DNA of 64,000 bases, taken from a virus. Of this stretch, positions 24,750 through 43,312 are shown one piece after another. Below the pieces are notes generated by a model that had not been told where the DNA came from, searched no databases, and saw nothing but the letters and a program-made list of their open reading frames with translations. The stretch is from positions 17,185 through 81,184 of IMG/VR virus record IMGVR_UViG_3300029908_000015. One strand, written 5' to 3'. The first letter of the stretch is position 1; each line of letters opens with the position of its first letter. Made by a program: the position numbers and the translations under genes.

Positions 24750-25340
24750 TTATATTGTATAGTGGAATTTATTCGGCATATTTTTCTTAATATCAAAATC
24801 TAAAAAATTATCTAATTGATTTTTATATTCGTCGTATGATACGGCTATATAATTTCCATGTATACATATTTCCATTGATTTTTTAAGAGCAATTTTAATA
24901 TTTGTGTTATTGTATTTCAACGTCGATACAAACTCTTCGGGCGACAAATTTTCTAACTCCTGCTTCGATAATTTAAGTTCTTCATGTAAATCAGCATACC
25001 GGCAAAAGGAAAAATCAAAACCATTAATGGGAAAAATAATATAAGGGTTTCCATAATACTCAGTTGAAAAATAGTCACTTGCGCAAAAAATACTATTTGA
25101 TCGTAATGCCTTAAACCCGGCGGCACGCAACTTACTATCAATTAACTCTTGCAAATCAAGAGTAGTATCCATCGGCTTTCTATTAATAGGTGATTGACCG
25201 TTAATTATAGATTTCTCCGATTTAATTCCTCGGAACAAAACCTTATTACATGAACGAAATATTTTTAAAATATTCGAGCAGTCTGATTCGATTATATAAG
25301 AAAATTTACTAAGAGACCCATCAAATTCTAGTAACTTCAT
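24750..25340 (-). CDS. ADP-ribosyltransferase-like paralogue 1
   Basis: 196 residues from the ATG at 25340 (AAGGAAGG just upstream); an earlier ATG lacks a site. Conserved blocks of the paralogous family: F-R-G at 36-38, ALRSNSIFCAS (78-88), IIFPINGFDF, and M-E-I-C-I-H-G-N-Y with E157. The order Arg / Ser block / Glu follows the R-S-E scheme of ADP-ribosyltransferases such as T4 Alt and ModA. The start M-K-L-L-E resembles a T4-type prohead protease site. Last gene of the effector operon. Enzyme activity is inferred from motif order only. Confidence 0.55.
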   Translation of the reverse strand: MKLLEFDGSLSKFSYIIESDCSNILKIFRSCNKVLFRGIKSEKSIINGQSPINRKPMDTTLDLQELIDSKLRAAGFKALRSNSIFCASDYFSTEYYGNPYIIFPINGFDFSFCRYADLHEELKLSKQELENLSPEEFVSTLKYNNTNIKIALKKSMEICIHGNYIAVSYDEYKNQLDNFLDFDIKKNMPNKFHYTI

Positions 25341-25350
25341 TTTACCTTCC

Positions 25351-26208
25351 TTACTCGTCATCGTCTTGATCTTCATCACCTTGAAAAATAGGAACTTGCC
25401 CTAATAATTCTAATTGATCTGATTTTAACCAGCAACTCGATTCACAGTCATATCCGTACGTAAATTGTGTTGCTCCATCATAACCAGCATAACTATATGA
25501 CCCGAAATTATAATGATGAATGCAATCAAAATGCTTCTGTAATTCTTGCCAAGGAAAATCTTTTTTAATCAAATCATCCGGAGACCCGTATGATTTTATT
25601 CGTTCCCATTCTGCAGGATCTAAATATGCTGAATTACCACGGCCCAATTTTTCAAAAATTTCATAAATTATTTTTGCATCATCGGTTGAATCTAATTCAT
25701 AAACTACAGTGTTCGGCTTAACCTTGTATACATAACCTATTTTACTTTGCCTAGATATTCCCAAATCTCCCATTCCATAGGCTTGTATAAATTTATTCCA
25801 TCCGCTTGTCCACTTACCATTTGGTAATTTCTTAGCGGTACTTGTCCATAAAATTGCCCCAACTGGTTTATTATTTCCGGGTAATACCGGGGAGCCGCCG
25901 GCTATAACAGGAGCGCCCTCGTTTAAATTTCTAGACTCCATCGCAGTATCAATATAATTTTTCGCCCAATCGGTAAGATTCCCCTCATCGTCGTATGAAT
26001 ATTTTGCCCTATCTTTAAGTAAATAATCTGATCTTTCTTTTTTCGTAGTATATGATACTGATTTTCTGGGTATAAAAAGCTGAAGTGTTCCGTTAGGAGC
26101 AACCGTAGTGCCATGTTTTTTGTAATATTCTAGGGATTCTCTAGCAGCTTCTATTGGATCATATATTGCTTCAATTTTTTTCTTTTTTGCAAATTCATCT
26201 ATTCTCAT
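25351..26208 (-). CDS. Putative packaged protein with N-terminal MRIDE tag
   Basis: 285 residues, no known family. It has the cluster's N-terminal tag M-R-I-D-E, a basic helical start, and a central region with ILWTSTAKKLPNG and YVYKVKPNTVVYELDS that could be a distant relative of the neighbouring ADP-ribosyltransferase-like proteins (W-T-S as Ser block), although no Arg or Glu motif can be placed with confidence. The C-terminus is very acidic. Start in the same operon, 10 bases before paralogue 1. Confidence 0.55.
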   Translation of the reverse strand: MRIDEFAKKKKIEAIYDPIEAARESLEYYKKHGTTVAPNGTLQLFIPRKSVSYTTKKERSDYLLKDRAKYSYDDEGNLTDWAKNYIDTAMESRNLNEGAPVIAGGSPVLPGNNKPVGAILWTSTAKKLPNGKWTSGWNKFIQAYGMGDLGISRQSKIGYVYKVKPNTVVYELDSTDDAKIIYEIFEKLGRGNSAYLDPAEWERIKSYGSPDDLIKKDFPWQELQKHFDCIHHYNFGSYSYAGYDGATQFTYGYDCESSCWLKSDQLELLGQVPIFQGDEDQDDDE

Positions 26209-26374
26209 TAAAATAGCTCCATATCAATGATATATCGCAGGTAAGGCAGCGACATTCTAATAATCTATTACTCCATTAAGCGGCTACAACTCGATGATTA
26301 CCATCAATTAAATAATCTTTTCTGTTCCATTATTTAACAATAATATTGTTCACGTTAAACTCATCAAATCTCAT
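26209..26374 (-). pseudogene. Remnant of a tagged ParB-like gene
   Basis: An ATG at 26374 with GAGGT upstream starts M-R-F-D-E-F, again the cluster tag, but TAA follows after 14 codons. In the same frame, after the stop, comes D-Y-L-I-D-G-N-H-R-V-V-A-A, the core of the ParB/sulfiredoxin-like fold, then a second TAA. This is best read as the decayed remains of a gene; a 14-residue peptide is possible. Confidence 0.6.
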
Positions 26375-26375
26375 T

Positions 26376-26842
26376 TCATACCTCGCCTGGAATAACTAAA
26401 ATTTTCGGATATGGCTCAACCCCACATATTTTAGCTGCATTTAACCGAGTGTTCCCTGCCGTTAATACTCGTTGACCATAATGTTCTATTACCATCGCCA
26501 TAGGAATTGCATCGTTATTTTCAAATCCTCTTGCAATTCTAAATGGATCTCTAACATAATCAGAATAATACAAACTTATATCTTGCATCATCTGCAAAGA
26601 ACTACCATTTGTCAATCTAGAAATTGAATTAAAATTATCGTATGACAGACGTTCAATTTTGCCCCGTAAAACCGCTAGTTTAGCATTTTTCCAGGTAGAC
26701 CAGCAATTAATATCTGGTAATCCAATTACATCAGGATAATCTCTGTCATTTAAATGTTTGAGATCAAATTCTTTCCGCAACTCGGTATCATTAGGCAAAC
26801 GCCAATTATCATAATGAATTTGTTTAATTTCAAAAGTCTCAT
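26376..26842 (-). pseudogene. ParB-like gene with a frameshift after the start codon
   Basis: The long frame codes for a protein ending in TAGNTRLNAAKICG, a ParB/sulfiredoxin-like core, but it has only a weak TTG start at 26798 and continues upstream without ATG to residues that read E-T-F-E-I-K-Q. A normal ATG at 26842 overlaps the previous stop (ATGA) but is out of frame by one base. Adding one base after codon 2 would give M-R-T-F-E-I joined to the long frame, which matches the tag of other cluster members. So a one-base deletion, a sequencing error or a frameshift event is likely. Confidence 0.6.
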
Positions 26843-27414
26843 ATAATTACTCCAAGCCAGTCTTGAAACCAATATGTTGAAAAAGAATTATAACGAACTG
26901 CTGCATATTTTCCATGAAGGTAAACTTCTACTCCGGTATGCATAGCAAATCCTAAATCAGTATCTTTAAACTCCAAATCTTTAATAAATTTATCTGTTGA
27001 CATATTTTGAATTTGAGGAACATTATATTCCATTTCTTCTGTTAAATCTCGATATTTGCAATATGTATAATCGAATCCGTTAACTGGAAAAATTACATAT
27101 AAACTTCCGCCATCGGCGTATGCTATAGCATCATTCTCCCGACCCGTGCAAAAAATACTATTTGATCGTAATGCCTTAAACCCGGCCGCTTGTAACTTGT
27201 CGTCGATGGCAAATGATAAAAATCTAGGAGTATCTCTTGGCAAACGATTTACTGGTGACTCGTCAATTAAATACTTCTCGGAACTCGCTATTCCTCGGTA
27301 TAAAACTTTTCTATTCTCGCGATACAGCACCAAAATATCAGAACACTTTTCTTTAATGAAAGAAATTATTGCATCATTACCGCTTCCCGAGTTATTGATT
27401 TCTGTTAATCTCAT
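26839..27414 (-). CDS. ADP-ribosyltransferase-like paralogue 2
   Basis: 191 residues. Blocks: L-Y-R-G (Arg40), ALRSNSIFCTG (82-91), YVIFPVNGFDYTYC, and V-E-V-Y-L-H-G-K-Y with E163. The tag M-R-L-T-E is at the N-terminus. The start overlaps the stop of the Nudix gene (ATGA), so both are made together. As close to a minimal version of the family as the window offers, with no insertions. Confidence 0.6.
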   Translation of the reverse strand: MRLTEINNSGSGNDAIISFIKEKCSDILVLYRENRKVLYRGIASSEKYLIDESPVNRLPRDTPRFLSFAIDDKLQAAGFKALRSNSIFCTGRENDAIAYADGGSLYVIFPVNGFDYTYCKYRDLTEEMEYNVPQIQNMSTDKFIKDLEFKDTDLGFAMHTGVEVYLHGKYAAVRYNSFSTYWFQDWLGVII

Positions 27415-28418
27415 ATCTTACCATCGCAGGCCTTAACAATGTTACTTTGACTCTTACGTCCGATCCGATAAAATTCATCGGCGGTTAACCATTTTGTTTC
27501 ACTAACTTCAAAACCAGGTTTATCAAAATCTACGGGATCGGTTACTTCCCCAATAAAAATAGTCATCTCACTGGTTTCTGTATATCCTGTTATTTCACCT
27601 TTCCAACCAATCTTAACGGTGTTAGAAATCAAATTTGAAGGTCTCAACCCGCATTCTTCGTTTGCTTCTCTAAGCCCTGCTTGCATTTCGTTTTCACCAG
27701 CATCAACATGCCCCTTTGCAATCATGGGCTTGTCCCCACCATACGACGGATCGCTGCTAATAACAAATAACATTCGAGCTACGCCGTTATTATCTCGGTA
27801 ATACGGAATAAATCCGGCTTTTTTAATTTGGCTACGATCCCAAGCTTCTTCTAAGTTATTGGACATCGTACCTTTTAATTCACATTCAGCACAACAAAAT
27901 TTCTGGTCAGTCGAATGAATATTTTTAAATGTTATTCCACAAACTGGACATTTTTTATCAACTGTTTTATCCGCATTTGCAAATTCATTATACGTTAAAC
28001 TTTCTTGTACAAGATCCCTCTTTTTCATTTTACGCATAAAACCATCTGGGCGATGAAGGAAAGACGAAATGAGATCTTCCTTCTTACTTCCAATATTGCC
28101 ACCCTCAGCAAATGTATTGGCGATTTCTGTAGCCGCATTAACTATATCATTCATTGTTAATTTACGAGGTTTTTTTCCTCGCAATTCTTCCCACATTAGA
28201 TACATAAAATCCGAAGGATCATCATATATCTCAGCTAATACTTTTTTATTAGTCATATTAATTCTCGAACATCCCATAAATTTTGTACTTAAAATTTTTG
28301 ATTTCTTGGGCTCAGCACCTAAAATAGGGCCGAGCTCGTCAACTTTATCTTGTGGCCCGAGCCACTGAGAATTTCTATACGATTTATCAGATCCTAAAAT
28401 TGTTTTTTTCTTTTTCAC
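27411..28418 (-). CDS. Nudix hydrolase with zinc-ribbon linker
   Basis: 335 residues, GTG start at 28418 overlapping the preceding TAG. A perfect Nudix box (GX5EX7REUXEEXGU) occupies residues 236-258, including LREANEECGL. Before it lies a zinc-finger-like segment, CPVCG at 157-161 and FCCAEC near 175-179, and an N-terminal 150-residue part rich in Lys and Asn that is not recognised. Nudix enzymes cleave nucleoside diphosphates linked to another group, often ADP-ribose or NADH. Being translationally coupled to ADP-ribosyltransferase-like genes on both sides makes ADP-ribose or NAD the first substrates to test. Confidence 0.8.
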   Translation of the reverse strand: MKKKKTILGSDKSYRNSQWLGPQDKVDELGPILGAEPKKSKILSTKFMGCSRINMTNKKVLAEIYDDPSDFMYLMWEELRGKKPRKLTMNDIVNAATEIANTFAEGGNIGSKKEDLISSFLHRPDGFMRKMKKRDLVQESLTYNEFANADKTVDKKCPVCGITFKNIHSTDQKFCCAECELKGTMSNNLEEAWDRSQIKKAGFIPYYRDNNGVARMLFVISSDPSYGGDKPMIAKGHVDAGENEMQAGLREANEECGLRPSNLISNTVKIGWKGEITGYTETSEMTIFIGEVTDPVDFDKPGFEVSETKWLTADEFYRIGRKSQSNIVKACDGKI

Positions 28419-29356
28419 TATTTCACCAAACTTAAAAAGTCAAATCGTCGTCTTGCGGCTTCGTAGCAATCGTTATCTATTGCAATGTAAGCCCCATGCA
28501 CCCAAACATCTTGCCCTTTACTCAACGCCCATGCTAAATCAGTATCATAAAATTCATTCACCCGCATATATTCTTCTACTATATCTGGGTTAGTTGGTTC
28601 TAAATTAATCTTTTCGGATATTTTATCAGCCTCTTCTCTAAATTCTTCAAATATAGGATATTTTTGCACCAAAATATAAAACTCTTTTAATATTTTATTT
28701 ATTTTGCCGCGGATCTGATAAATCGTATGGTAATTCTGTATAATAGTACCTATAGTGTAGGCATCTTTTAAAAATTTTTTTACTTTTATATCTGAACTAG
28801 CTATCGTATTGAATTGTTTTTTATAAAATGCAGACTCTAGTATCTGGTCTATTATTAACCTATGCACATGCGTTTTTAATTCAACTAAAGGACATATATA
28901 CTCTCTGGCAGTAGTCCAGGTCCATCTTTTACTATACCCAAAAGTAAATCCGTTAATAGGTAATATTAGAAAAACTCGGCCCCAGGATCCGGCATCAGAA
29001 ATGCTTGAAGTGCAAAAAATACTATTACTACGCAATGCAGTAAATCCAGAAGATGACATACAATAATCTGCATACTTAACGGCCTTCGCGATTTCATCGT
29101 TAGCCAAACGCTGTTCGATACTTTTTCGTTTTGCTGGAGGATATCCCATAAAAATGGTTGATCCACCCGAAACGCCTTTTATCCCTCGATATAGATAATT
29201 ATCAGATTCTTTTGCATCTTTTAAAAATTCAGAGCAATTTTTAAAAATCCATTTTTCAATTTTGGCTAGCTCAGTCGCGGCCGAGGTATAGTTAATCGAA
29301 GAAAATGTATTCGGCTTCAGCATAGCGGGATCCGGCATTAACTCATTTATCAACAT
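28418..29356 (-). CDS. ADP-ribosyltransferase-like paralogue 3, with helical insertion
   Basis: 312 residues. Blocks: L-Y-R-G (Arg57), ALRSNSIFCTS (107-117), LILPINGFTFGYS, and D-V-W-V-H-G-A-Y near 283-290. The usual Glu is Asp283. Between the third and last block lies an insertion of about 100 residues, mostly helical, shared in part with paralogue 5. Tag M-L-I-N-E at the N-terminus. Ribosome site AGGAG six bases upstream. Confidence 0.55.
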   Translation of the reverse strand: MLINELMPDPAMLKPNTFSSINYTSAATELAKIEKWIFKNCSEFLKDAKESDNYLYRGIKGVSGGSTIFMGYPPAKRKSIEQRLANDEIAKAVKYADYCMSSSGFTALRSNSIFCTSSISDAGSWGRVFLILPINGFTFGYSKRWTWTTAREYICPLVELKTHVHRLIIDQILESAFYKKQFNTIASSDIKVKKFLKDAYTIGTIIQNYHTIYQIRGKINKILKEFYILVQKYPIFEEFREEADKISEKINLEPTNPDIVEEYMRVNEFYDTDLAWALSKGQDVWVHGAYIAIDNDCYEAARRRFDFLSLVK

Positions 29357-29384
29357 GTTTTACTCCTATTCCCTATATCTTGAT

Positions 29385-30023
29385 TTAGTCGAATTCTTCA
29401 TTTTCTGGGTTATACTTAACCGGTAGACCCTTAAAATCATCGGCATTAATTTTGGTTTCTTCATGCTTAATAGCAACATAAGCGCCGTGAATCCAAACAT
29501 CATAATGATTAATTAATGGCCATTGCAAATTAGTATTGTATAATTCATTGTAATCTAAAAATTCTTCTACATGTTCTGCATTCATCATTCTAGGACGAAT
29601 ATTATATGCGCACGCATTACAATTAGTAAAAGCCTTACTATATCCAAATGTAAATCCATTAATAGGATATATTTCATATACCTCTCCCCAAGATCTCGCC
29701 GCCCCGGTAAAAGAATTACAAAAAATACTATTACTTCGTCGAGCCGGCCATCCCGCTAACTTGAGAAGAAAATCAACCTTCTCCGCGGCCTCTGTTGAAT
29801 AATATTCAACCGTAGGTCGATTTTCCCTAGAATAGCCAATAAAAGATTCTCGGGTTTCGTTCTTAATACCGCGATATAATTTATAATCACCCGCAACAGA
29901 TAAAAATTCGGAGCAATGCTCAACAATCCAGGATTGCAATTTATCCGATTTATATCTAGCAAGAGATAATTGCTGTCCGGGTTTTAGCAAATCAACTCGA
30001 TTTAAAATTTCATTTAACCGCAT
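29385..30023 (-). CDS. ADP-ribosyltransferase-like paralogue 4
   Basis: 212 residues from the ATG at 30023 (AGGAAGAAGAG upstream); a longer frame that overlaps the neighbouring gene is rejected. Blocks: L-Y-R-G (Arg51), RRSNSIFCNS (95-104), YEIYPINGFTFGYS, and D-V-W-I-H-G-A-Y with Asp175 in place of Glu. Tag M-R-L-N-E. Most similar to paralogue 3, with which it shares the Asp, but lacking its insertion. Confidence 0.55.
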   Translation of the reverse strand: MRLNEILNRVDLLKPGQQLSLARYKSDKLQSWIVEHCSEFLSVAGDYKLYRGIKNETRESFIGYSRENRPTVEYYSTEAAEKVDFLLKLAGWPARRSNSIFCNSFTGAARSWGEVYEIYPINGFTFGYSKAFTNCNACAYNIRPRMMNAEHVEEFLDYNELYNTNLQWPLINHYDVWIHGAYVAIKHEETKINADDFKGLPVKYNPENEEFD

Positions 30024-30195
30024 TTTTTCTCTTCTTCCTATGTCGTTTAATCGGAGAATAAATTGATGAATTAGGGTCACCGCCAAAAAACTGTCCAGCC
30101 GGAGGTGTACCCATTGGGCTATTAACAGTTGATATAGATCCAGAGCTTGTTCCCCCGCTTGATCCATTTTCTCGAATTATGTCTTTTATCTTCAT
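30010..30195 (-). CDS. Short Gly/Ser/Pro-rich protein with MKIKD tag
   Basis: 61 residues from the ATG at 30195, which follows a late-type promoter motif by five bases and has no ribosome site. After the tag-like start M-K-I-K-D the sequence is flexible (Gly, Ser, Pro) and ends with a highly basic tail (K-R-H-R-K-K-R-K), as expected for a DNA-associated internal head protein. Its end overlaps the start of paralogue 4. Confidence 0.55.
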   Translation of the reverse strand: MKIKDIIRENGSSGGTSSGSISTVNSPMGTPPAGQFFGGDPNSSIYSPIKRHRKKRKNAVK

Positions 30196-30200
30196 ATTAA

Positions 30201-30207
30201 TATTTAT
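30201..30207 (-). promoter_or_regulatory. Late-type promoter motif (GATAAATA)
   Basis: GATAAATATTAATATG on the minus strand ends in the ATG at 30195; the same 16 bases occur before the gene at 34636. Related to the T4 late promoter TATAAATA. Confidence 0.6.
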
Positions 30208-30635
30208 CGTTTTATTGTTGAACGAAGGAACCAAGCAAATTTTTCTTGGGAATCGATTAATCCTTGCACGAAATTTTGTAACCCTAATTGATCGGGTGCC
30301 GATGCGTTAACTTCATTAAGAACTTCTATTAATTTTTCATTATCAATCAACAATTCTTGAATCATTTCTTGCGCAGGTAAAATACCAGCAAAATCAGATA
30401 ACACCGATAATCCCATTATTTGTTGAAGACCGAGGGGAGTAAAAATATCAAGTGCTCGCATCTCTTCTCCAATCCCATCATAGGCAGTATCAACCGATTC
30501 ATATATGAGTTGTAATAATTTATGCAATTCATAAAATCTCGGGCCAGTAATATTAAAGTGTGCAATATGAACCTTAATTGTATAATGTAACACCGTAGCA
30601 GTCGCTACCGCCAGCACTTCCTCTAAATTTTTCAT
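30204..30635 (-). CDS. Dps/ferritin-like protein
   Basis: 143 residues, all-helical. The ferroxidase residues of Dps line up exactly by spacing: H26 (in KVHIAHFNITG), H38 (Y-E-L-H), D53 and E57 (D-G-I-G-E-E), equivalent to H51, H63, D78 and E82 of E. coli Dps. Dps proteins bind DNA, store iron and use up peroxide. It sits among proteins thought to be packaged in the head, so it might protect or compact DNA. Ribosome site AGGAG; gene in the same orientation as its neighbours. Confidence 0.75.
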   Translation of the reverse strand: MKNLEEVLAVATATVLHYTIKVHIAHFNITGPRFYELHKLLQLIYESVDTAYDGIGEEMRALDIFTPLGLQQIMGLSVLSDFAGILPAQEMIQELLIDNEKLIEVLNEVNASAPDQLGLQNFVQGLIDSQEKFAWFLRSTIKR

Positions 30636-30720
30636 TTAATCTCCTATTTTGAAAATTGAATCTTCTGCTTTTCATTTAATTTAGAACTAATCTTCCAATG
30701 TTTTAATTGTATATTCGGCA

Positions 30721-30984
30721 TCATGCCAGTTGCCCATCCTTGGCATCCATAATTTTAATAACTCTGGATAATATTTCAGTTTTTATGTCAGAGTTATTCC
30801 AATCTTTATCAACAAACAGATAAAATGGTTTCCACTTATTACCAATTATTTGCATGATTACCGTACCAATTTCCCCAAAACCTTTACAATACCCAGATAA
30901 TACATACACCGAAATTTTTGAACCGTTAGTTAATTTTCCAGTCCATTTAATTTTGTTCGAATTGTTAATTTCATTTACTCGCAT
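30721..30984 (-). CDS. Small tagged hypothetical protein, 87 residues
   Basis: Not recognised. It begins with the tag M-R-V-N-E-I-N-N-S-N, almost the same as the first ten residues of paralogue 2 (M-R-L-T-E-I-N-N-S-G). The rest is a small beta-rich domain with SKISVYVLSGYCKG. There is no evident ribosome site. Confidence 0.55.
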   Translation of the reverse strand: MRVNEINNSNKIKWTGKLTNGSKISVYVLSGYCKGFGEIGTVIMQIIGNKWKPFYLFVDKDWNNSDIKTEILSRVIKIMDAKDGQLA

Positions 30985-31010
30985 AGTTATACTGCTTTTA
31001 AAATTTCTGA

Positions 31011-32081
31011 TTATTTCTTTAGACCAAAATATTTACATAATAATTTGTCATAATTAATTTCTAGAATATCCTGTCTAATTGCTACATAATGCCCACAAAT
31101 ACATACCTCATTCCTCGTTTTCATTGCTTGATCAAGATTATTAGTACGTATGTTATGATATTTTAAAAAATTATTTGATTGTTGCTTACGATCACTTGCC
31201 TGCATAATAAGTTTGTACGCGGTTTTTATGTTGGCGGATGAAATTGAATTCAACTTATATTTTTTAGCAATCTTGCAATAGGTATCTAACGTTGTTTTAA
31301 TTTTTAATAATTCTTTATTCATGCTAGCTAAGACATCGGCTGTGTCGTAGGCATCAAAAAATCTAGCATCTGACCAATATTCTTCAATACTTTCTATTAT
31401 TCTACCGTCCGTTCTTGATAGTTCGGAAAAATCTGGAAAGGCTACGGAAAAACTCCTCAATAAAGTTAATAATTTTTTAAATTCTATATTGCTATCAATT
31501 ATATCATCCACAGATATTTCCCAATCTTCATGCTTACTCCAGGTATATGAAAATCCATCACAAGGAAAAATACAAAATATATGCCCATAACCATCTGCAC
31601 CCAGACTGTTACTTATACAAAAAATACTATTTGATCGTATTGCCTTACAACCACCAAGCGATAATAATTCATCCACATTTTTTTGAATTTTTTTCGGAGT
31701 ATCCAATGGACGTCTATTCAATCGTGAAGCACCTATAAAATAAACCGTTTTGGGATCTATATCTCGTGATCCGCGATATAATAATGAACTTGATTTTTTC
31801 ATGTATCTTAAATATTCACTACAATTCTCCTCTATAAATCGGCAAACTTTTAAAAATCGAAGTTTATCTTTATCCCGCATTGATGCGGGATAAAGATTTA
31901 GCAATATTTTCTTGCTAGGCGTTAAATTTGCACTAAATAAGTCGCCTTCTACCGTTGATCCCGGTTTTAATTTCTTATAATTTTTCATAGGTAATTTACC
32001 CACTCTCTTAATCTTTTTCGTGATTTTAATCTCAGTTATCTTATTGTATGAATTAATAATCATTTTTAGCAATTCTCTCAT
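31011..32081 (-). CDS. ADP-ribosyltransferase-like paralogue 5, with helical insertion
   Basis: 356 residues from the ATG at 32081, inside the end of the upstream fusion gene (29-base overlap); a longer frame back to 32189 is rejected. Blocks: L-Y-R-G (Arg103), AIRSNSIFCIS (147-157), FCIFPCDGFSYTWS, and E-V-C-I-C-G-H-Y near residue 330. A helical insertion of about 130 residues precedes the last block, as in paralogue 3. A possible protease site I-T-E lies at residues 15-17 rather than at residue 5. The first 45 residues are very basic. Confidence 0.55.
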   Translation of the reverse strand: MRELLKMIINSYNKITEIKITKKIKRVGKLPMKNYKKLKPGSTVEGDLFSANLTPSKKILLNLYPASMRDKDKLRFLKVCRFIEENCSEYLRYMKKSSSLLYRGSRDIDPKTVYFIGASRLNRRPLDTPKKIQKNVDELLSLGGCKAIRSNSIFCISNSLGADGYGHIFCIFPCDGFSYTWSKHEDWEISVDDIIDSNIEFKKLLTLLRSFSVAFPDFSELSRTDGRIIESIEEYWSDARFFDAYDTADVLASMNKELLKIKTTLDTYCKIAKKYKLNSISSANIKTAYKLIMQASDRKQQSNNFLKYHNIRTNNLDQAMKTRNEVCICGHYVAIRQDILEINYDKLLCKYFGLKK

Positions 32082-33657
32082 TTTTATTAACAGATTCATT
32101 AAAATCATTTGCTGCTCTCTGCCGATAATCAGTTGGCACATTAATTGTCTTCTTACCATGACAATATACGCATTTTTTCTTCTTGCCATTTATTAATGTA
32201 AATCCTTTTCCATCGCATCGAAGGCAAGTTAGCTGCGCTTCACTTATCTCTAAACCCGGAGTATCATTGGAGTTTATTACTTCATTCATCCCAATTTTAA
32301 TTATTTTATCGAGTAAGGTTTTATTATTTAATGCCACAGCTATATATTTTCCATGAATATAAACCTCAAACATTTTATTCAATGCATCGGTTAAAAAAAG
32401 ATTAGTAAAACCATATGTTTGTGTGAATTCCCTGGCCGGCATATTAATCGAATCATTAACAAATGAATTATCACTATAAGTATTGTCTTCATTAAACAAA
32501 ACGTAGTGTAATCCAAATTTTCCTGTTAAGTCAAGTGCTCTTCTACACCAGGTATATGAAAATCCATTTAAAGGAAAAATAACATATACTTTTCCGTGAT
32601 TAGTCTTATCATGATCATTACTATAATTACTGGCAATCAACTTATCCGACGTACAAAAAATACTATTTGATCGTAATGCAGTAAATCCAACTTTGGATAA
32701 TGCCGAATCCAATAATTCCGATGCTTTCTCATTTGAATCTACCGGCATACGATTTTTAACTTCTTTCCCAAATAAAATAGGTTCGACCGAATGAATACCA
32801 CGATATAAAAAATCATGATCTTTATAAATTTGCAAAATATCTGTGCAATTAGTTTTAATAAATCTAACTATTCTATCTTCTTGATTAGGCGTCATACTTT
32901 CTTTTAAACTTTTAAAATATTCGACCTCGCCTTCATGTTTTGCGTCAGCTCTATGACTATCAAAAGTTCCGAGATTCTTACCTTTATGGGAAAGCAATCG
33001 ATATTTTCCATTCTTTAATTTAACAATATGTTCGTCTAATTTTGGCGGGGATAATAATACTCGATCGAGTATTACTTTTATTTTATTAACTTTCGTAGAT
33101 TTAGGGTATAACTCTTGAATGATTTGATATCTGTCTGTTTCAGAGCCGTTTGCATACATTTCACGAATCTTACTAGCAGAGCTAATATTCTGGCCAAGTA
33201 TTTTATATTGTATTGCTGGAACAACTACATAATAGGCATGCTTATCAAATGTCTGCAATGGAGTAGTAGATGAAACTGGATATGGCTGCATATACGAAAG
33301 TTCCCCATTTTTCTTAATAGGAGAACCAAGGCGATCTCGATCTTTCGATGATAAACCAAAAATTAAAACGGTATTTGCTGAATCATATTTTCCAGTTATT
33401 TCGGTAGATTTATACGGACTTACTACTTCAACAAATTTATCTTCAGGAACTCCTGCTTGCGCAGCTAAAAATCTCTTCTCTGCAAATGAAAATGGTCGCT
33501 CAGACATTTTATTTGAACTAGCCACATATAAATCTGCCTTTGGAAATTTATTTTTAAGATAATTATATACTGCGGTATGCCCAGCCGACCATGGGTGAAA
33601 TCCACCGGGAAATATGCAGAGCTCGTGATATCTAGTTTCAAATTCAGAAAGAAGCAT
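32053..33657 (-). CDS. Nucleotidyltransferase fused to ADP-ribosyltransferase-like domain and zinc finger
   Basis: 534 residues in four parts. Residues 10-200: a nucleotidyltransferase of the NMN/pantetheine adenylyltransferase fold, with FPGGFHPWSAGH (16-27) and ISSASKIREM (158-167). Residues 210-250: a short K-N-G-K-Y module ending in VEYFKS common in phage head proteins. Residues 262-450: family paralogue 6, with L-Y-R-G (Arg286), ALRSNSIFCTS and E-V-Y-I-H-G-K-Y (E431). Residues 478-499: two CxxC pairs in DnaJ-type C-x-x-C-x-G style. N-terminal tag M-L-L-S-E. If the first domain makes NAD, the fusion would join NAD synthesis and use in one chain. Confidence 0.7.
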   Translation of the reverse strand: MLLSEFETRYHELCIFPGGFHPWSAGHTAVYNYLKNKFPKADLYVASSNKMSERPFSFAEKRFLAAQAGVPEDKFVEVVSPYKSTEITGKYDSANTVLIFGLSSKDRDRLGSPIKKNGELSYMQPYPVSSTTPLQTFDKHAYYVVVPAIQYKILGQNISSASKIREMYANGSETDRYQIIQELYPKSTKVNKIKVILDRVLLSPPKLDEHIVKLKNGKYRLLSHKGKNLGTFDSHRADAKHEGEVEYFKSLKESMTPNQEDRIVRFIKTNCTDILQIYKDHDFLYRGIHSVEPILFGKEVKNRMPVDSNEKASELLDSALSKVGFTALRSNSIFCTSDKLIASNYSNDHDKTNHGKVYVIFPLNGFSYTWCRRALDLTGKFGLHYVLFNEDNTYSDNSFVNDSINMPAREFTQTYGFTNLFLTDALNKMFEVYIHGKYIAVALNNKTLLDKIIKIGMNEVINSNDTPGLEISEAQLTCLRCDGKGFTLINGKKKKCVYCHGKKTINVPTDYRQRAANDFNESVNKNERIAKNDY

Positions 33658-33667
33658 TTATAAATCC

Positions 33668-34636
33668 TCAGTTATATTTATGAAAGAATGGCCCAAGAAT
33701 AAGATCCCCTTCCTGTGAATACAATTCTTTATTAATTTGTAAAATCCATTCAGGCGCAATGTTCTTTCTTCTATAATTTTTTAAAAATAAATGTGTTTCT
33801 ATCGGAATATCACCGTAAACCTGCAATACACCTAGCATTCGATGTCTACCTTCATGATCTATAACTTTAGCTGCACTTCTAAAATTTAAGTCTTCCCAGT
33901 TACTCGGAATTTGGATACTTAAAAATGGGCTTCCAATAGAATTACCATTTTTAATATATTCTCGCATATTATCTACCGAATCAGAAAAATGTGAGAAAGA
34001 CGGTGTCAATGACAAAAATGAGCTCGGCTTCATTGCTACCCGCAACCCAAAATAATCTATATCTTCATTATTGGGAGTTGCACCGGCACCTCTCTTATTA
34101 TCTATTTTAACTTCCTCAGATATATTCTTTGAAAATATTTTTGATAACTTTTTAAATGTATTTTTAACGCCCGAATCTTCGTATAATATTCCGATTCCAC
34201 CCGCAACATTCCAGGATTTAATATTATCATCCAAATCGTCGATTAATATATTACTATTCCCAACGTATTCATCTTTATTAAAAGCAAAAATAGCGGGAAT
34301 ACCCCCTAAACCATTCTTTTTTAACCATAACTTTTTCCCTGCTATACATTCTTCTGTATTAGGAGGGCCCACGGGACGGCTTAAAAAAATATATGGAATT
34401 TTTCTATTGTCGAACCAAGCTAATAATTTTTTTCCATTTGGCATCCATTCTAAATTTGCAAAGAATTTCTTAATGTCGCCGTTATTAATAACATTGCTCC
34501 AATACTTATTGTTCCATCCATAGGATTCAAATTCCTCTAGCGTAAGATGATTAAAATCAGCCGCGCCCTTAGCACAATCTGCCAGACACCCATCTAGATC
34601 TATAAATACTTTGCGTTCGATTTCAGAAATTCTCAT
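33668..34636 (-). CDS. HAD-like phosphatase fused to a ParB-like domain
   Basis: 322 residues. The N-terminal 170 residues have HAD signatures, FIDLDGCLADC (Asp nucleophile and second Asp) and NILIDDLDDNIKSW. The C-terminal 150 residues carry D-H-E-G-R-H-R-M-L-G, similar to the catalytic turn of ParB/sulfiredoxin-like proteins, preceded by YFGLRVAMKPSSF. Tag M-R-I-S-E at the N-terminus. A late-type promoter ends five bases before the ATG, predicting leaderless late expression. The small molecule or protein acted on is unknown. Confidence 0.65.
   Translation of the reverse strand: MRISEIERKVFIDLDGCLADCAKGAADFNHLTLEEFESYGWNNKYWSNVINNGDIKKFFANLEWMPNGKKLLAWFDNRKIPYIFLSRPVGPPNTEECIAGKKLWLKKNGLGGIPAIFAFNKDEYVGNSNILIDDLDDNIKSWNVAGGIGILYEDSGVKNTFKKLSKIFSKNISEEVKIDNKRGAGATPNNEDIDYFGLRVAMKPSSFLSLTPSFSHFSDSVDNMREYIKNGNSIGSPFLSIQIPSNWEDLNFRSAAKVIDHEGRHRMLGVLQVYGDIPIETHLFLKNYRRKNIAPEWILQINKELYSQEGDLILGPFFHKYN
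33675..33681 (-). promoter_or_regulatory. Late-type promoter motif (CATAAATA)
   Basis: TCATAAATATAACTGAGG on the minus strand lies upstream of the fusion gene starting at 33657; GAGG serves as ribosome site. Confidence 0.55.
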
Positions 34637-34641
34637 ATTAA

Positions 34642-34925: not shown

Positions 34926-34926
34926 A

Positions 34927-36143: not shown

Positions 36144-36152
36144 ATAATTTTC

Positions 36153-36742: not shown

Positions 36743-36743
36743 G

Positions 36744-39005: not shown

Positions 39006-39024
39006 AATGTCCCTTTCATTTATA

Positions 39025-39641: not shown

Positions 39642-39664
39642 TATTCACCCCGTGCTAATTAGAT

Positions 39665-40117
39665 TTAAATTCGATATTGTAATTCCTTCTCAGTTTCTTG
39701 CTTAACTATAAATTTAATAGGTGGGCATAATCCATTCCAAAATTCTGGTGTGCCATCTGGCATTTTTTTTCTTAGTGCATCATTTGTTACAATTAATTCT
39801 ACTTCTCTCCAAGCCAAGCTCGATCTCGATTCATGCAGGGATAAAATTTCAAATCGAAATTTGTCTTTTCCTCTTAAGGTAATTTCTTCATTTAATGTCT
39901 TACAACTACCGGTATATTTTTTCCAATTCGATTCATTTATTACTTTTTTTCTATTTGTTCTGTTTTTAATTTTTTTTCGGGTTGTCATAAAAAAGAATTT
40001 CTTGCCGATATATTTGCGATTGGTATCTATACATGTAATTTTATACACAAAGCCAATCCATTCAGTTGGATCAAAATTAAATGGAAATTCCCAATGTCCT
40101 ATGTCTATTTTTTCCAT
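39665..40117 (-). CDS. GIY-YIG-like nuclease domain protein
   Basis: 150 residues. F-V-Y-K-I-T and R-K-Y-I-G-K-K near residues 23-40 stand for the GIY and YIG elements; a later F-R-F-E-I-L and E-V-E-L-I fit the domain's rest, with the catalytic Arg and Glu candidates. The N-terminus contains a Trp-rich segment. Could be an endonuclease or a DNA-repair-type enzyme. The motif CTAAATA lies five bases before the ATG, as in late genes. Confidence 0.6.
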   Translation of the reverse strand: MEKIDIGHWEFPFNFDPTEWIGFVYKITCIDTNRKYIGKKFFFMTTRKKIKNRTNRKKVINESNWKKYTGSCKTLNEEITLRGKDKFRFEILSLHESRSSLAWREVELIVTNDALRKKMPDGTPEFWNGLCPPIKFIVKQETEKELQYRI

Positions 40118-40172
40118 ATCAATATTTAGCTGAACATACCGAAATAAGAAAATAGTTAACTATTTTATCGAA

Positions 40173-40688
40173 TTATTTACCGATTATTAAATTTTTCGCA
40201 GCTAATTTTTTATTGGAAAATATTTTCTTTTGTCTATTACGTGATTTGTAATAAGCGGCGTCTTTTAAAATTCGTTGTCGAAAAATCCATTCGTTGTCTT
40301 TTAAAAGAATAGCAATTGAAATCGTATTTGGATTTAACTGAAATAATAGATCAGTGTCATTAAAAAAATCAATTATGTCATCTCGTAAAATTCCTATACG
40401 AAAATTTTCGGTTTTGCTATAAGAAATTATTCCCTTTTCTTTTAAACTATAATATTGTTCTATAATTGACATAAAAATATAATTGGGAATATCTTGCCAA
40501 TCGCAATACAGTTTAATTTCATTAATTGTATCAATCCAAAAATTTTTATCTATTTCATTAATTGAATTGTCGAAGTCAATTATCATATTCCAAAAATTCA
40601 TTGATATATCAAAAAATATTAAAAATAATTGTTTTTGCAATTCATTTAATTTAATAATTTCATCTTGATAATATGATACATATTTCAT
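40173..40688 (-). CDS. Hypothetical protein, 171 residues
   Basis: Helical, rich in Ile, Asn, Asp and Lys, no known domain. The start at 40688 has AAGGAAA about ten bases upstream; a longer frame from 40778 runs through the 161-bp hairpin and is rejected. It ends with a basic segment (K-S-R-N-R-Q-K-K). Function unknown. Confidence 0.55.
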   Translation of the reverse strand: MKYVSYYQDEIIKLNELQKQLFLIFFDISMNFWNMIIDFDNSINEIDKNFWIDTINEIKLYCDWQDIPNYIFMSIIEQYYSLKEKGIISYSKTENFRIGILRDDIIDFFNDTDLLFQLNPNTISIAILLKDNEWIFRQRILKDAAYYKSRNRQKKIFSNKKLAAKNLIIGK

Positions 40689-40707
40689 AAATATATTTCC
40701 TTGTTTT

Positions 40708-40868
40708 GCTTTTCCGAGTGGTGGATGACAACACCAAGCGAAAGCGATATGCGAAGCCAGTGAACGACAGTGAAACATCTCATCAAATATTATTAAAATT
40801 TTTCACTGTCGTTCACTGGCTTCGCTTACTGGCGCTTTCGCTATGTGCTCTCCACAAGTCCGAAAAGC
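40708..40868. repeat. Long imperfect hairpin, 161 bp
   Basis: Inner arms of 25 bases (40751-40775 and 40801-40825) are perfectly complementary. Further out AGCGAAAGCG (40737-40746) pairs with CGCTTTCGCT (40833-40842), and 40708-40725 pairs with 40851-40868 except for three positions. The loop is AT-rich. It is far GC-richer than the flanks, as in a small inserted repeat element. Confidence 0.85.
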
Positions 40869-40920
40869 GAAAATTTTAAATATTTTTGATGAATTAAAAA
40901 TAAAATTATGGTTATTTTAA

Positions 40921-41367
40921 AGACAAAGACGCTTGGGGCGCCTCCCGTCTCTTTGGAACAACTTCCAAACTAAACTCCAATCCTTCCTATCCCGCTATAT
41001 CATTAAGATCCGGCTCTTCATTTTGGGCTTCCGGGGCTTCATAGGAATTTCAGCGGTTATGCTGTACTGAAATAAGACCGTGCGGTCTATGATTGATCTG
41101 AAAAACACAACGCAATTATTTCAAATGAGTTTAGCAATTTGAAATAACTATATCAGGATTAGGAGCATTACGCTCTCGCCTTTACCTGTCTGTCTTTGTC
41201 ACTTTTCTCAAGCCATGATAGCTATATTGATGGGGGGACCCTCCAGGTAGTACTCTACCAACGACATTGGACACTAGGAGTTGCTGGGTGTTTAAGGCCA
41301 ATAACCTTTGATCTAAATTGTAGGTATTGCTCCATATTTGCTACTCCATAAGTATTTTCCATGATTA
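40921..41367 (-). ncRNA. Candidate structured RNA, about 450 bases
   Basis: No gene in this gap. A perfect promoter (41374-41402) would start a minus-strand RNA near 41367. Along it are hairpins at 41246-41259 (GGTAG/CTACC), 41266-41302 (nested ATTGG/CCAAT and ACAC/GTGT), 41163-41175 (GAGC/GCTC), 41116-41147 (11 bp perfect), 41075-41088 and 41047-41073 (ATTTCAG/CTGAAAT). The end has a terminator-like stem around 40922-40957. A 35-codon frame starts near the 5' end without ribosome site. No match to tmRNA, RNase P or a group I intron was found by eye. Confidence 0.5.
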
Positions 41368-41373
41368 ATATAC

Positions 41374-41402
41374 AATATAACATTGATACGTTAACTTGTC
41401 AA
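41374..41402 (-). promoter_or_regulatory. sigma70 promoter of the candidate RNA
   Basis: TTGACA (41397-41402), 17-base spacer, TATATT (41374-41379). No coding gene with a ribosome site follows for more than 650 bases. Confidence 0.8.
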
Positions 41403-41415
41403 GACATTTTTTATT

Positions 41416-42717
41416 TTATTTGAAAAAATAATTTGCTTCTTCTATCTGTTCAACTGTAGCATTGGGAAAAAATAAATTTCTCATATTTTGAGCCATAGCC
41501 TTAGTTGGTAGATATACAATATTGTTATTATATGCTCCGGTTCTTAAGGAACTACGTAAAAGACCTTGATATGAGTGAGATAGCGTATGATGCATTAAAA
41601 TTTCGTCAGCATCGAATCCGAGATCTACCATTTTTTTCTGGTACGCGGGTGGCCACCTATAAGCACCAGATTCTCCGTAATTATGTGTACCAACATAGGT
41701 GTTTAATCCCTTAACTTCAAACGGCATAAAAATAGGATTTTTAATATGGGTAAATTTATTACCTTTATTATTCTGTAACAAAATTTCGTTATCACCAATT
41801 GAATTTCCAACTAATAGATCGAATAATTCGAAATTGGTAAGAGTTGGTTCTATAAGATTTTTTGAGTTGTAGTAATTTTTACTCCATAGACTAATTTTTT
41901 CGGTCATCCATTTGATAGTAATAGGTTGATCGTGCTTATCAAATCTTTTAGGAATTACAAACTCTTCAATTGCAATGCCTTTTAACTTAAAATAGGCTAT
42001 GATTTTACTACGTTGAATTTCTGCGCCCATTAAATAAATGTTTTCAAAACCTTCAAATATGTTGGTATTTAATTCAGCCCACATTTCGGCTTCGTAATTA
42101 CCAAATTTAAAAGCTGTCAATGATGCAGTATCCGCATATATTTTCATATTGGGATTCAATATCAATTGAATAAATTTTTGGAATGGCGGGTAAATAAAAT
42201 CGTCGCGAAAGCAAAGAGTTTTTAAAAATCGCTGATCTTCTTTTGAGAGACGTTTTCGCTTAATAGACGTGTACCCACCGGCATTTATTTTGCAGGTACT
42301 AATTTTTTCAATATCTGCCATTAGGTCATTACCGAATTCATAACTTGATGCATCGTCCGAATCAAAAGTAATGAAGTCAGTTGGTTCTATTTCTTCATCA
42401 ACAAAAACAGTCCAATTTTTTTTATTCGGAAAATTCAAAATATTCTTAAATGCCGCATGTGTAATAATAAGGACTTCGCATCGTAATGGTATTGTTAGAT
42501 ATGCATTGATTGCCTTAGTAACACCCATACTGTCATTTTCCATATAATTGATAATTTTATATGGGGTATTTCCCAATCGTTTAGCAATTTCGTATTGCAA
42601 ATCGGTTGAGGGGGTTACGAAAAGCACTCGTTTTTTGTTATTAACGAGTTCTTTAGATAAGTTAACAGCAAAATATGTTTTGCCGGCCCCGCACAACGAA
42701 TTAATATATCTTATCAT
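41416..42717 (-). CDS. Superfamily 2-like helicase/ATPase
   Basis: 433 residues. Walker A is CGAGKTYFAVNL at residues 9-20, Walker B appears as TVFVDEE, and a motif VI-like LSHSYQGLLRSSLR lies near residue 395. The ends of the protein match a two-lobe helicase, although the intermediate motifs are weak. Members of such a group often work on RNA or on structured DNA. It has no ribosome site and a consensus promoter six bases from the ATG. Confidence 0.65.
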   Translation of the reverse strand: MIRYINSLCGAGKTYFAVNLSKELVNNKKRVLFVTPSTDLQYEIAKRLGNTPYKIINYMENDSMGVTKAINAYLTIPLRCEVLIITHAAFKNILNFPNKKNWTVFVDEEIEPTDFITFDSDDASSYEFGNDLMADIEKISTCKINAGGYTSIKRKRLSKEDQRFLKTLCFRDDFIYPPFQKFIQLILNPNMKIYADTASLTAFKFGNYEAEMWAELNTNIFEGFENIYLMGAEIQRSKIIAYFKLKGIAIEEFVIPKRFDKHDQPITIKWMTEKISLWSKNYYNSKNLIEPTLTNFELFDLLVGNSIGDNEILLQNNKGNKFTHIKNPIFMPFEVKGLNTYVGTHNYGESGAYRWPPAYQKKMVDLGFDADEILMHHTLSHSYQGLLRSSLRTGAYNNNIVYLPTKAMAQNMRNLFFPNATVEQIEEANYFFK

Positions 42718-42723
42718 CGTTTG

Positions 42724-42752
42724 ATTATAATTGATTTTATGCCGAATGTCAA
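42724..42752 (-). promoter_or_regulatory. Consensus sigma70 promoter, six-base gap to ATG
   Basis: TTGACA (42747-42752), 17-base spacer, TATAAT (42724-42729), then CAAACG and the ATG at 42717. Predicts a leaderless mRNA for the helicase-like gene. Confidence 0.85.
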
Positions 42753-43312
42753 GCTATTAATTCCTTGATAAGTGCATTGAATTTTTCTTCCGCCAAGAAC
42801 ATACATTTTCCAGTAATTAGTATTTCATTACCTGATGTAGTTGCCTTTAACAAATTATCCTGCCTAAATGAATATAACGAAGTAAACTCGTTGGGATCCA
42901 TGTCTATAATTTTAGGTGCGTATTTTGAATATTTGCCCTGATCATAATTCGTATATAAATCTTGCATCGTTTCTGACCATGTGAACTCGAAGTTATTGAA
43001 TGGGAAGGTTATGAAAATTTTTCCATATCTATTTGCCACAGATCTTTTATTTGTGCAGAAAATACTATTCGATCGTAGAGCCTTAAATCCTGCTGCTGAT
43101 AATTTTTCATCAAATATTTTTTGTTGTTTAATAGAAAATGACATTGGGTGCCTATCGGCAACCTTAGAAATAATAAACATATTTTCTAATCGGTGTGATC
43201 CGTGATAAAGAAATTCACCCGAAGATTTGTAGAAATCAACAATTTGAGAGCAAGATTTGCTGATAAATTTTTTAATATTATTGAGGTCTGGAGTAATTTC
43301 AAATTCTCTCAT
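42749..43312 (-). CDS. ADP-ribosyltransferase-like paralogue 7, altered Arg
   Basis: 187 residues. Same family as the cluster at 24750-33657: ALRSNSIFCTN (78-88), ITFPFNNFEFTWS and E-I-L-I-T-G (E163). The first block reads L-Y-H-G, with His37 where the others have the Arg thought to bind NAD, so this copy may have lost or changed activity. The N-terminus is M-R-E-F-E. It follows the tail fibre gene by overlap (TAATG) and should be expressed late. Confidence 0.55.
   Translation of the reverse strand: MREFEITPDLNNIKKFISKSCSQIVDFYKSSGEFLYHGSHRLENMFIISKVADRHPMSFSIKQQKIFDEKLSAAGFKALRSNSIFCTNKRSVANRYGKIFITFPFNNFEFTWSETMQDLYTNYDQGKYSKYAPKIIDMDPNEFTSLYSFRQDNLLKATTSGNEILITGKCMFLAEEKFNALIKELIA

Follow-up and report, generated by a model that had tools for sequence, protein, structure and literature searches.

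A clustered phage gene family with a predicted ADP-ribosyltransferase fold and an N-terminal leader suggestive of head packaging

Background

T4 Alt is the textbook case of a single ADP-ribosyltransferase (ART) that a phage injects into its host. Two further T4 enzymes, ModA and ModB, carry the signature R-S-EXE and are synthesized from early genes once infection has begun (PMC10468400). The Alt propeptide is 7 residues long, and the T4 prohead protease gp21 cleaves at L/I-X-E (PMC9026906). Other head-packaged phage ARTs have been described as MuF fusions and polyvalent proteins, packaging being inferred by the source itself (PMC9503650).

In this report, we analyzed an array of seven related genes in a DNA stretch of 64,000 nucleotides from a T4-like soil phage (the whole of which we call the window), and compared it with homologous loci of other phages. 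The genes had been singled out for their resemblance to ARTs. The central observation is that a short leader is present on the family and on unrelated proteins alike; it was absent from the original prediction, and it changes the story, as a short start tag common to different proteins suggests head loading and injection with the DNA.

A family of seven clustered genes

All seven ORFs are present in the window, on the minus strand (Table 1). In a profile search each of them matched phrog_11975 with an E value of 4.3e-18 or better, and five also matched phrog_12810 more weakly; no function is attached to either group. A profile built from the seven, run against the 81,184-base record of which the window is part, recovered exactly the same genes, and their description as one clustered family is thus upheld. 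In a Pfam search, the seven genes gave no match above the cut-off for the family domain. Three ordered blocks had been thought common to all, which proved right for the R-S-N-S-I-F-C block, invariant across the alignment of the seven, and only partly right for the other two: the first Arg is present in six copies, the seventh (42749-43312) reading LYHG, and in the last block five genes have E, the 28418 and 29385 genes have D, and the 42749 gene has lost the Tyr.

Table 1. Array genes and other features of the window
Feature	Coordinates	Strand	Evidence and remarks
Acb1 (anti-CBASS)	7250..7741	-	PF23474, E 1.1e-25, residues 19-157
ART-family gene	24750..25340	-	phrog_11975, E 2.1e-25; leader start MKLLEF at residue 14 (offset 13); ORF listed to 25379
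Non-family protein	25351..26208	-	Leader MRIDEF; Pfam search at E up to 1 gave no family
ART-family gene	26839..27414	-	phrog_11975, E 4.6e-32; leader MRLTEI; R40, S84-N85-S86, E163
Nudix hydrolase inside the array	27411..28418	-	PF00293, E 5.8e-8; phrog_1185, E 2.7e-14; no leader seen
ART-family gene	28418..29356	-	phrog_11975, E 4.3e-18; leader-like MLINEL; Asp for last Glu; longer insert
ART-family gene	29385..30023	-	phrog_11975, E 3.8e-19; leader MRLNEI (offset 48); ORF listed to 30167; Asp for last Glu
Small non-family protein	30721..30984	-	Leader MRVNEI; relatives with leaders in loci L012 and L069
ART-family gene	31011..32063	-	phrog_11975, E 3.5e-28; KITEI at residues 8-12
Fusion gene	32053..33657	-	phrog_11975, E 3.7e-27, to residues 250-385; leader MLLSEF
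5'-3' deoxyribonucleotidase-like	33668..34636	-	phrog_2643, E 3e-18; leader MRISEI
ART-family gene	42749..43312	-	phrog_11975, E 4.9e-33; LYHG (His for first Arg); MREFEI start, no L/I-x-E

Several of the listed ORFs begin too far upstream. The shared leader points to likely ATG starts near 25340 for the 24750 gene, near 30023 for the 29385 gene and at 32063 for the 31011 gene, the last of which was seen on inspection of the DNA to overlap the stop of the 32053 gene. This 32053 gene encodes a fusion, in which a nucleotidyltransferase-like part (GGFHPxxxGH ... ISSASKIR) is followed by the ART-family domain and then by a CxxCxGxG zinc motif that matches only weakly (DnaJ_CXXCXGXG, E 0.017, below the Pfam cut-off); the closest PDB sequences to its N-terminal part are those of phosphopantetheine adenylyltransferase, at an E value of only 0.15. 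The 42749 gene adjoins a tail fibre gene (neighbour PF21882). The family set exceeds seven: an IMG/VR contig (G001), which matches about 45.9 kb of the window at 99.98-100% identity, has 13 family genes by our count, including one divided between two frames.

An N-terminal leader shared with unrelated proteins

At the N-terminus of most family members is a short leader, M-[KR]-[IL]-x-E-[IL] or a variant of it, which ends in L/I-x-E, the site of the T4 prohead protease. It resembles the start of T4 Alt (MELITELF) and that of gp199 of phage Atu_ph07, which adjoins the portal gene; judged by eye, the SCTP-2 and LR756508 members have similar starts. In counts that include related sequences, M.{1,6}[IL]xE at the first ATG was found in 52 of 72 family ORFs, compared to 8.6 on shuffling, and the remaining 20/72 had no L/I-x-E there. 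Six of the seven window copies, for which the starts were inspected, have, judged by sequence, a putative propeptide ending in L/I-x-E. A relaxed leader, M[KR][ILVWF]x[EQ][ILVF], is missing in 22 of the 63 aligned members.

Outside the family, a strict leader drawn from alignment A2, M[KR][ILVWMF]xE[ILVF], occurs on 20 of 424 ORFs, compared to 0.24 by shuffling. This count, too, includes related sequences, and its ORFs come from loci that partly overlap those of A2: the loci of the family, G001, what remains of the window's own record and some head loci, with those of Atu_ph07 and T4 left out. The same ORFs are enriched for an early L/I-x-E (66/424 versus 23.4), so that this motif alone is not family-specific. 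The tagged neighbours of the array include a deoxyribonucleotidase-like protein (Table 1), and the N-terminus of Acb1, MKLFSDFLMEEE, is leader-like in a looser sense: it does not match the strict pattern, and the Acb1 domain starts at residue 19. For the tagged 25351 protein, a pattern scan of IMG/VR returned only its own copy in G001. A WTST stretch in the same protein prompted the idea of a second ART type.

Head genes and the case for packaging

The window's own record encodes a gp21-type protease (Peptidase_S77, E 1.2e-24) and a gp23 capsid protein (E 5.8e-97). Both are carried by 4 of 13 records and neither by the other 9, possibly as these are fragments. We consider it probable that the array encodes head-packaged, injected ART effectors. 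Packaging, cleavage, injection, NAD chemistry and separate targets are the steps that we infer, and they would proceed as follows. The N-terminal leader, 5-8 residues long, would target each protein into the prohead core, where the gp21-type protease would cut after its L/I-x-E; the mature enzymes would be injected with the DNA, like T4 Alt, and, once inside the cell, every paralogue would use NAD to ADP-ribosylate a host or defence target of its own.

Alternatively, the proteins might be active ARTs made early in the cell, like ModA and ModB, with a leader that serves partner binding or local sorting. Such a scheme would agree with the position of the array, which has non-head genes around it in the window and does not adjoin the head module in its own record, and with the members that lack the relaxed leader. 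Yet the leader is common to unrelated proteins, contains the gp21 motif and resembles the starts of Alt and of the portal-adjoining gp199, and on balance we find early synthesis unlikely.

Atu_ph07 has a homologous array, gp053-gp063 (11 genes, annotated as hypothetical), that falls inside CDS 31-76, where 29 virion proteins were detected by mass spectrometry, a figure known here as a block count (PMC6102473). These proteomic data were rejected as proof of packaging, because 29 of 46 detected leaves 17 undetected, among which all 11 array genes could lie; a random-draw value of 9e-7 was likewise set aside, as it takes all proteins to be equally detectable and does not amount to a test. A relaxed pattern, written after the Atu_ph07 starts were seen, matches 10 of the 47 ORFs in the gp31-76 block, where 0.05 are expected, and 8 of the 648 that lie outside all three virion blocks, where 1.05 are expected; such figures describe Atu_ph07 and do not test the leader. 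The strict leader is found on 0 of the 47 ORFs of the block because the array there uses M[KR]WxQLxE. A macro-domain gene, a candidate eraser of ADP-ribose, was seen in Atu_ph07 only (1 of 13 records).

Evolution of the array

Values of dN/dS ranged from 0.06 to 0.32 in six pairs, indicating that the tested pairs are under purifying selection. In the tree, the partner of five of the seven window genes is a gene from another phage, in each case at starred support: the sisters of the 24750, 26839 and 31011 genes are G002 rows (support 98/90, 100/98 and 97/93, respectively), and that of the 42749 gene is a G005 row (98/91). The distribution of the window rows takes 6 changes, compared to 6.7 for shuffled labels, and 148 of 500 shuffles were as low. 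Recent local duplication as the origin of the array was rejected on account of this cross-phage pairing and of rows that are no more clustered than shuffled ones. The paralogues are kept as counterparts across phages, and the seven, members of a single phage family, are old paralogues. A scan for bacterial relatives gave 16 pattern matches in genome contigs, none of them confirmed, a weak negative since the scan rested on one peptide pattern.

Conserved residues and predicted fold

R57, R83 and S86 are each present in 63/63 aligned members, and position 163 is E or D in 62/62. R40 is found in 55 of the 63 and the first Arg is missing in 8, a loss that, alongside the unchanging R57 and R83, is unexpected for a classical R-S-E site. 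In an AlphaFold2 model of the 26839 protein (pLDDT 93, pTM 0.88), R40 is part of strand 38-42, and S84/S86 and E163 immediately precede strands 87-90 and 164-167, respectively; judged by order and strands only, the three active-site positions of the model thus fall on canonical ART strands, and the proposed order of Arg, Ser block and Glu agrees with R-S-E ARTs, which carry their blocks in these places.

Closeness to T4 Alt, ModA and ModB, which had also been proposed, was not borne out. Position 161, the first residue of ExE, is Glu in only 3 of 62 members; with His for Arg in one window copy, Asp for Glu in two and ExE absent, the genes do not qualify as members of the Alt/Mod group. The missing ExE suggests that the acceptor need not be arginine, unlike that of ModA and ModB. 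Profile comparison did not yield the anticipated link either: there was no ART family in the Pfam tables of the seven proteins, among the 25 of 37 Pfam families listed for the 63 members at E up to 1, or among the 12 NCBIfam families matched at E up to 0.1, and no PDB chain matched the family by sequence.

The structural comparison gave a different result. Foldseek found no PDB match to the 26839 model below E 1.0; 6kyf, which we take to be an ART-fold chain, stood at rank 4 with a probability of 0.06, amid unrelated rows, and the ART signal emerged only on re-alignment with VIA. There, 50/50 of the rows listed belong to the ART superfamily, the best among them being 2aua (Z 7.2, rmsd 3.9, 128 residues aligned), and the match to Arr 9iaf has Z 5.6 and rmsd 3.7 over 90 residues. 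A second AlphaFold2 model, of Atu_ph07 gp060, about a third identical to the 26839 protein and built from an alignment that shares rows with that of the first, gave 10/10 ART rows among those listed, with Arr the best (Z 4.5, rmsd 3.5, 87 aligned). Z stayed below 8 throughout for both models, and KptA and Arr were among the closest structures. T4 Alt, ModA and ModB are absent among the VIA rows listed, from which nothing is concluded. 2aua is BC2332, found among ADP-ribosyltransferase codes as SCOP d.166.1.6 (PMC3000352). Structure prediction of 26839-27414 and the ensuing fold search thus favour the ART-like fold that had been proposed, and we assign the seven-gene family an ART fold as a prediction only, the best Z being 7.2.

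The fold might have been kept for another use, by non-catalytic binders or decoys, for which T4 internal protein I, an inhibitor of a restriction enzyme, is a precedent (PMC3012670), or in RNA or DNA end processing, as in KptA. The members without R40 would be in keeping with this, as would the invariant R57 and R83 and the rank of KptA and Arr; but the constancy of E/D163 and S86, the purifying selection and the fusion of one window member to a nucleotidyltransferase-like domain make such a use quite improbable. A common arrangement only, in a family unrelated to ARTs, is very hard to credit: the best Z lies in the VIA range typical of models without a clear match, and the sequence searches brought up no ART model among the Pfam and NCBIfam matches listed, but two models of rather distant members gave only ART rows among those listed, with the motif blocks at three strands, as in ARTs.

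Implications and comparison with known systems

If the array is injected as we propose, one infection may deliver many host-modifying enzymes together, and ADP-ribosylation, with many targets, would be a main front of early infection by these soil and jumbo phages. A wider reading, which may prove wrong as readily as right, is that large T4-like phages use the capsid for modular delivery: a tag of 5-8 residues would load any product and be trimmed, so that about 7-13 paralogous ARTs, each with its own host or anti-defence target, would enter ahead of any phage gene expression, accompanied by zeta-type kinases, GNATs and a deoxyribonucleotidase that are likewise tagged, and perhaps by Acb1. The leader would make it possible to deduce from the sequence which proteins such phages inject, and a function is proposed for phrog_11975 and for the eleven Atu_ph07 genes gp053-gp063.

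The best structural match to the 26839 protein, the BC2332-like 2aua, is a Bacillus protein with only 8% identity to it. T4 Alt combines ART activity with a short N-terminal propeptide that has an L/I-x-E site, as the array does with its predicted ART-type fold, and both phages have gp21 and gp23 types; however, Alt is one large gene (683 aa), whereas the paralogues here have about 190-530 aa, no ExE and no sequence match to an ART model among the matches listed. ModA and ModB have the order Arg, Ser, Glu in common with the array, which departs from their R-S-EXE at position 161 and adds the leader. Although so large a set of ARTs had seemed unfamiliar, Bacillus phage G has at least 10 (PMC9503650), and is thus a further case of many ARTs in one large phage; the viral ARTs of that study were placed in 16 known families, and there is no mention of Agrobacterium, Salicola or Motura in its main text. 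The T4 internal proteins IPI-III resemble the present case in being diverse and in having nothing in common but a short N-terminal tag for targeting and cleavage (PMC3012670, PMC9026906), although here the tag is carried by an enzyme-like family and several further enzyme-like proteins, and is shorter than the 10 residues of IPIII. Finally, SPN3US is a phiKZ-like phage with an A-X-E site, much longer propeptides and no ART, but its gp53 and gp54 are 34% identical paralogues with an identical N-terminal stretch that contains protease sites (PMC5694885), and by analogy they may serve as a precedent for a leader kept on diverged head cargo.

The seven genes and their relatives

The seven ORFs proposed to encode ADP-ribosyltransferase (ART)-like proteins (starting at window positions 24750, 26839, 28418, 29385, 31011, 32053 and 42749) were confirmed on the sequence, with listed starts that are too far upstream for several of them. 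The conserved blocks assigned to them hold in part: the Ser block RSNSIFC is invariant in the alignment of all seven, while the first Arg is a His in 42749, and the last Glu is an Asp in 28418 and 29385. All seven proteins match phrog_11975, an unannotated phage family (E 4.3e-18 or better), and a profile built from them has exactly seven matches in the 81,184-base virus record. With Pfam at E up to 1, no family was found for four of the proteins, and only unrelated matches, all under cut-off, for the other three.

A pattern scan revealed relatives encoded at 39 IMG/VR loci. When 20 of these loci, in 20 records, were examined by whole-record search, every record matched (1 to 14 matches each, counts that include pieces of split genes). 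The contig G001, which over about 45.9 kb shares 99.98-100% identity with the window, holds 13 family genes, counted by hand from 15 ORF matches: one gene is split over two frames, and another is divided at a search-segment edge. In a tblastn search of 50,697 phage records, the 26839 protein matched only Agrobacterium phage Atu_ph07, which is present under two accessions; when the query was a divergent member, Salicola phage SCTP-2 and two uncultured phages were also recovered. A hand count for Atu_ph07 gives 13 family domains in 12 ORFs: gp053-gp063 in tandem, annotated as hypothetical, and one more at 304.7 kb. In BFVD, 28 viral models, several from Atu_ph07, match at E 1e-3 or better. A scan with one peptide pattern confirmed no bacterial relatives.

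A 778-aa protein with the family domain (L077), taken as Atu_ph07 gp053, is named in BFVD for a zeta toxin domain, and by eye gp063 carries the family domain after a GNAT-like N-terminal part. The 1005-aa protein at L038:1696-4713 is of the polyvalent type: it has a leader-like start, the nucleotidyltransferase-like domain that precedes the ART domain in the 32053 fusion and, by eye, two GNAT-like stretches.

In the tree, five of the seven genes in the window each have a partner gene in another phage with starred support (26839, 100/98; 24750, 98/90; 31011, 97/93; 42749, 98/91; 32053, 95/85), and three Atu_ph07 genes form a clade of their own (100/99). dN/dS ranged from 0.06 to 0.32 in six close, hand-picked pairs, one of which has a dS of 1.94, near saturation. 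The paralogues appear to be old copies that have stayed distinct under constraint, pointing to separate roles.

Predicted fold and active site

The 26839 protein was modelled from a 63-sequence alignment (pLDDT 93, pTM 0.88). The fold search agrees with the original prediction: 92 of 900 chains reached Z 2 or more in VIA-align, and the best 50 of these 92 entries all belong to the ART superfamily. Foldseek alone, against the PDB, gave nothing below E 1.0. Where the PDB title is silent, we take AcrIF11 (6kyf), TreX, TreTu, PltA, OspC3, CopC and KptA to be ART-fold proteins. Matches include Arr 9iaf (Z 5.6, rmsd 3.7, 90 aligned), KptA (Z 4.3, rmsd 3.0, 77 aligned) and diphtheria toxin (Z 4.3, rmsd 3.5, 85 aligned). 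The best among the entries listed is 2aua (Z 7.2, rmsd 3.9, 128 aligned), that is, BC2332 (SCOP d.166.1.6), which the available text of PMC3000352 gives among ADP-ribosyltransferase codes and that of PMC3024214 credits with active-site template matches of a toxin-like kind. The model of Atu_ph07 gp060 (pLDDT 82) reached Z 2 or more with 10 of 121 chains, all 10 from the ART superfamily, Arr being the best (Z 4.5, rmsd 3.5, 87 aligned); the two models are not fully independent, because the gp060 alignment shares rows with that of 26839. No Z reaches 8 for either model, and by VIA-align guidance top scores of Z 7 to 8 are typical of models without a clear match; it is therefore the uniform composition of the two lists that makes the case for the fold. 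The family very probably has an ART fold, and for most members there is a good likelihood of the predicted NAD-dependent transferase activity.

In 26839 numbering, R57, R83 and S86 are invariant over 63 sequences. Position 163 is Glu in 57/62 and Asp in 5/62, and position 40 is Arg in 55/63 (otherwise His 3, Ser 3, Lys 2); members that lack R40 may have lost or changed their activity. In the 26839 model, R40 lies inside strand 38-42, while S84-N85-S86 and E163 immediately precede strands 87-90 and 164-167. These residues resemble regions 1, 2 and 3 of R-S-E ARTs as presented in the available text of PMC3000352, but the family has Asn in place of the Thr of the STS motif and lacks the upstream Glu/Gln of region 3: position 161 is Gly in 28 sequences, Asn in 10, Lys in 8 and Glu in 3. 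R-S-EXE is described as the mark of Arg-specific ModA/ModB (PMC10468400, available text). Of the proposed match to T4 Alt, ModA and ModB, the Arg-Ser-Glu layout is thus retained and the EXE of ModA/ModB is not. Since the upstream Glu is missing, placing the family with Mod/Alt is not warranted, and its acceptor could be something other than arginine.

A leader shared with unrelated neighbors

The first six residues of the family are conserved (Met 61/61, K/R 54/59, hydrophobic, any, Glu 48/61, hydrophobic), even though the 26839 model shows little order over residues 1-10 (block pLDDT 53). A relaxed leader, M[KR][ILVWF]x[EQ][ILVF], is present on 41 of 63 members and absent from 22. The strict pattern, M[KR][ILVWMF]xE[ILVF], is found on 6 of the 66 ORFs of the window, each of them in 24750-34636. 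It stands at the first ATG of 41/72 family ORFs and of 20/424 distinct non-family ORFs, versus 0.24 in shuffles for the latter; the ORFs came from family neighborhoods, G001, the remainder of the window's own record and a small number of head loci, and counts are not independent because several sequences are near-copies. Among the non-family proteins with the tag are a zeta-toxin-like kinase (PF06414, E 2.6e-13) and a GNAT (PF00583, E 2.1e-7); 3 of the 10 scanned, out of the 20, have a Pfam family over cut-off.

Leader-bearing proteins and other features
Feature	Position	Start	Remark
Non-family neighbor	25351	MRIDEF
Non-family neighbor	30721	MRVNEI
Deoxyribonucleotidase	33668	MRISEI
Acb1, anti-CBASS protein	7250-7741	MKLFSDFLMEEE	PF23474, E 1.1e-25, domain from residue 19
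61-residue tagged protein	30010-30195	MKIKDIIRENGSSGG	inside a longer listed ORF
Atu_ph07 tagged protein	290373-290885 (among L079-L103)	MKWQDLSEGIKVYHGSRNN	outside the array
Second-leader proteins, own record's head module	G000:C1:3261-5794 and 9529-9858 (L110)	MNLLEEIxxY or near it
MoxR-like AAA ATPase and adjoining metallopeptidase-vWA protein	1990-4791		PF13203, PF09967
DNA polymerase, apparently two ORFs (by eye)	22733-24388 and 20245-21453		possibly intein or intron
Homing-endonuclease look (by eye)	21441-22634		between the polymerase ORFs

Acb1 carries a looser version of the leader as an N-terminal extension ahead of its domain; this sequence looks like a capsid-targeting leader, and Acb1, if pre-packaged, would act ahead of phage gene expression. 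The 61-residue protein resembles, by eye, L052:604-792 of another phage over its length.

Array starts in Atu_ph07 are mostly M[KR]WxQLxE. A relaxed Atu_ph07 pattern, composed after these starts had been inspected, matched 10/47 ORFs of the gp31-76 block (0.05 expected), 2/63 and 0/51 in the two remaining virion blocks and 8/648 elsewhere in the genome (1.05 expected); the strict pattern matched 0/47 in the gp31-76 block. The array falls within this block (CDS 31-76), which contributes 29 of the 131 virion proteins found by mass spectrometry, their identities being left to the supplement (PMC6102473, available text). The tagged protein outside the array looks by eye like another ART-like or PARP-like one. 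Members in SCTP-2 and LR756508 have, by eye, tag-like starts.

An early L/I-x-E at the first ATG was found in 52/72 family ORFs (8.6 in shuffles) and 66/424 other ORFs (23.4 in shuffles). The window's own record encodes a prohead protease (Peptidase_S77) and a capsid protein of the gp23 type; of 13 records tested, 4 have both. Six more proteins of its head module share the second leader on otherwise different bodies, and are likely internal head proteins.

Comparison with known systems

We consider it reasonably probable that the family consists of head-packaged, injected ART effectors. Multiplicity and packaging of phage ARTs are ideas already known: the available text of PMC9503650 reports ARTs in over 40% of jumbo phages, at least 10 in phage G, and frequent packaging by MuF fusion, polyvalent proteins or Alt-like context, and that of PMC7824862 documents injection of ART and GNAT domains, with many such factors in jumbo phages. 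The latter also describes, in group 2.2 jumbo phages, a chaperone pair similar to the MoxR/vWA pair of the window. The words Agrobacterium, Salicola and Motura are absent from the main text of PMC9503650, and no description of the family, its arrays or the shared leader was found in open-access main text, including PMC7824862, PMC6102473, PMC11242549, PMC13282480 and PMC5512222.

For the leader, the available text of PMC9026906 offers the T4 precedent: a short N-terminal sequence targets head cargo, gp21 cleaves after L/I-X-E, a 7-residue propeptide is removed from Alt, and the host receives ejected Alt. The internal proteins of T-even phages are a varied set of defence proteins with the tag as sole common feature (PMC3012670, in part), and two divergent paralogues of the giant phage SPN3US are identical at the N-terminus, where protease sites lie (PMC5694885, in part). 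T4 Alt and alt.-1 both start with MELITELF, close to MRLTEI of the window and to MKLTELF of Atu_ph07 gp199, which adjoins the portal gene.
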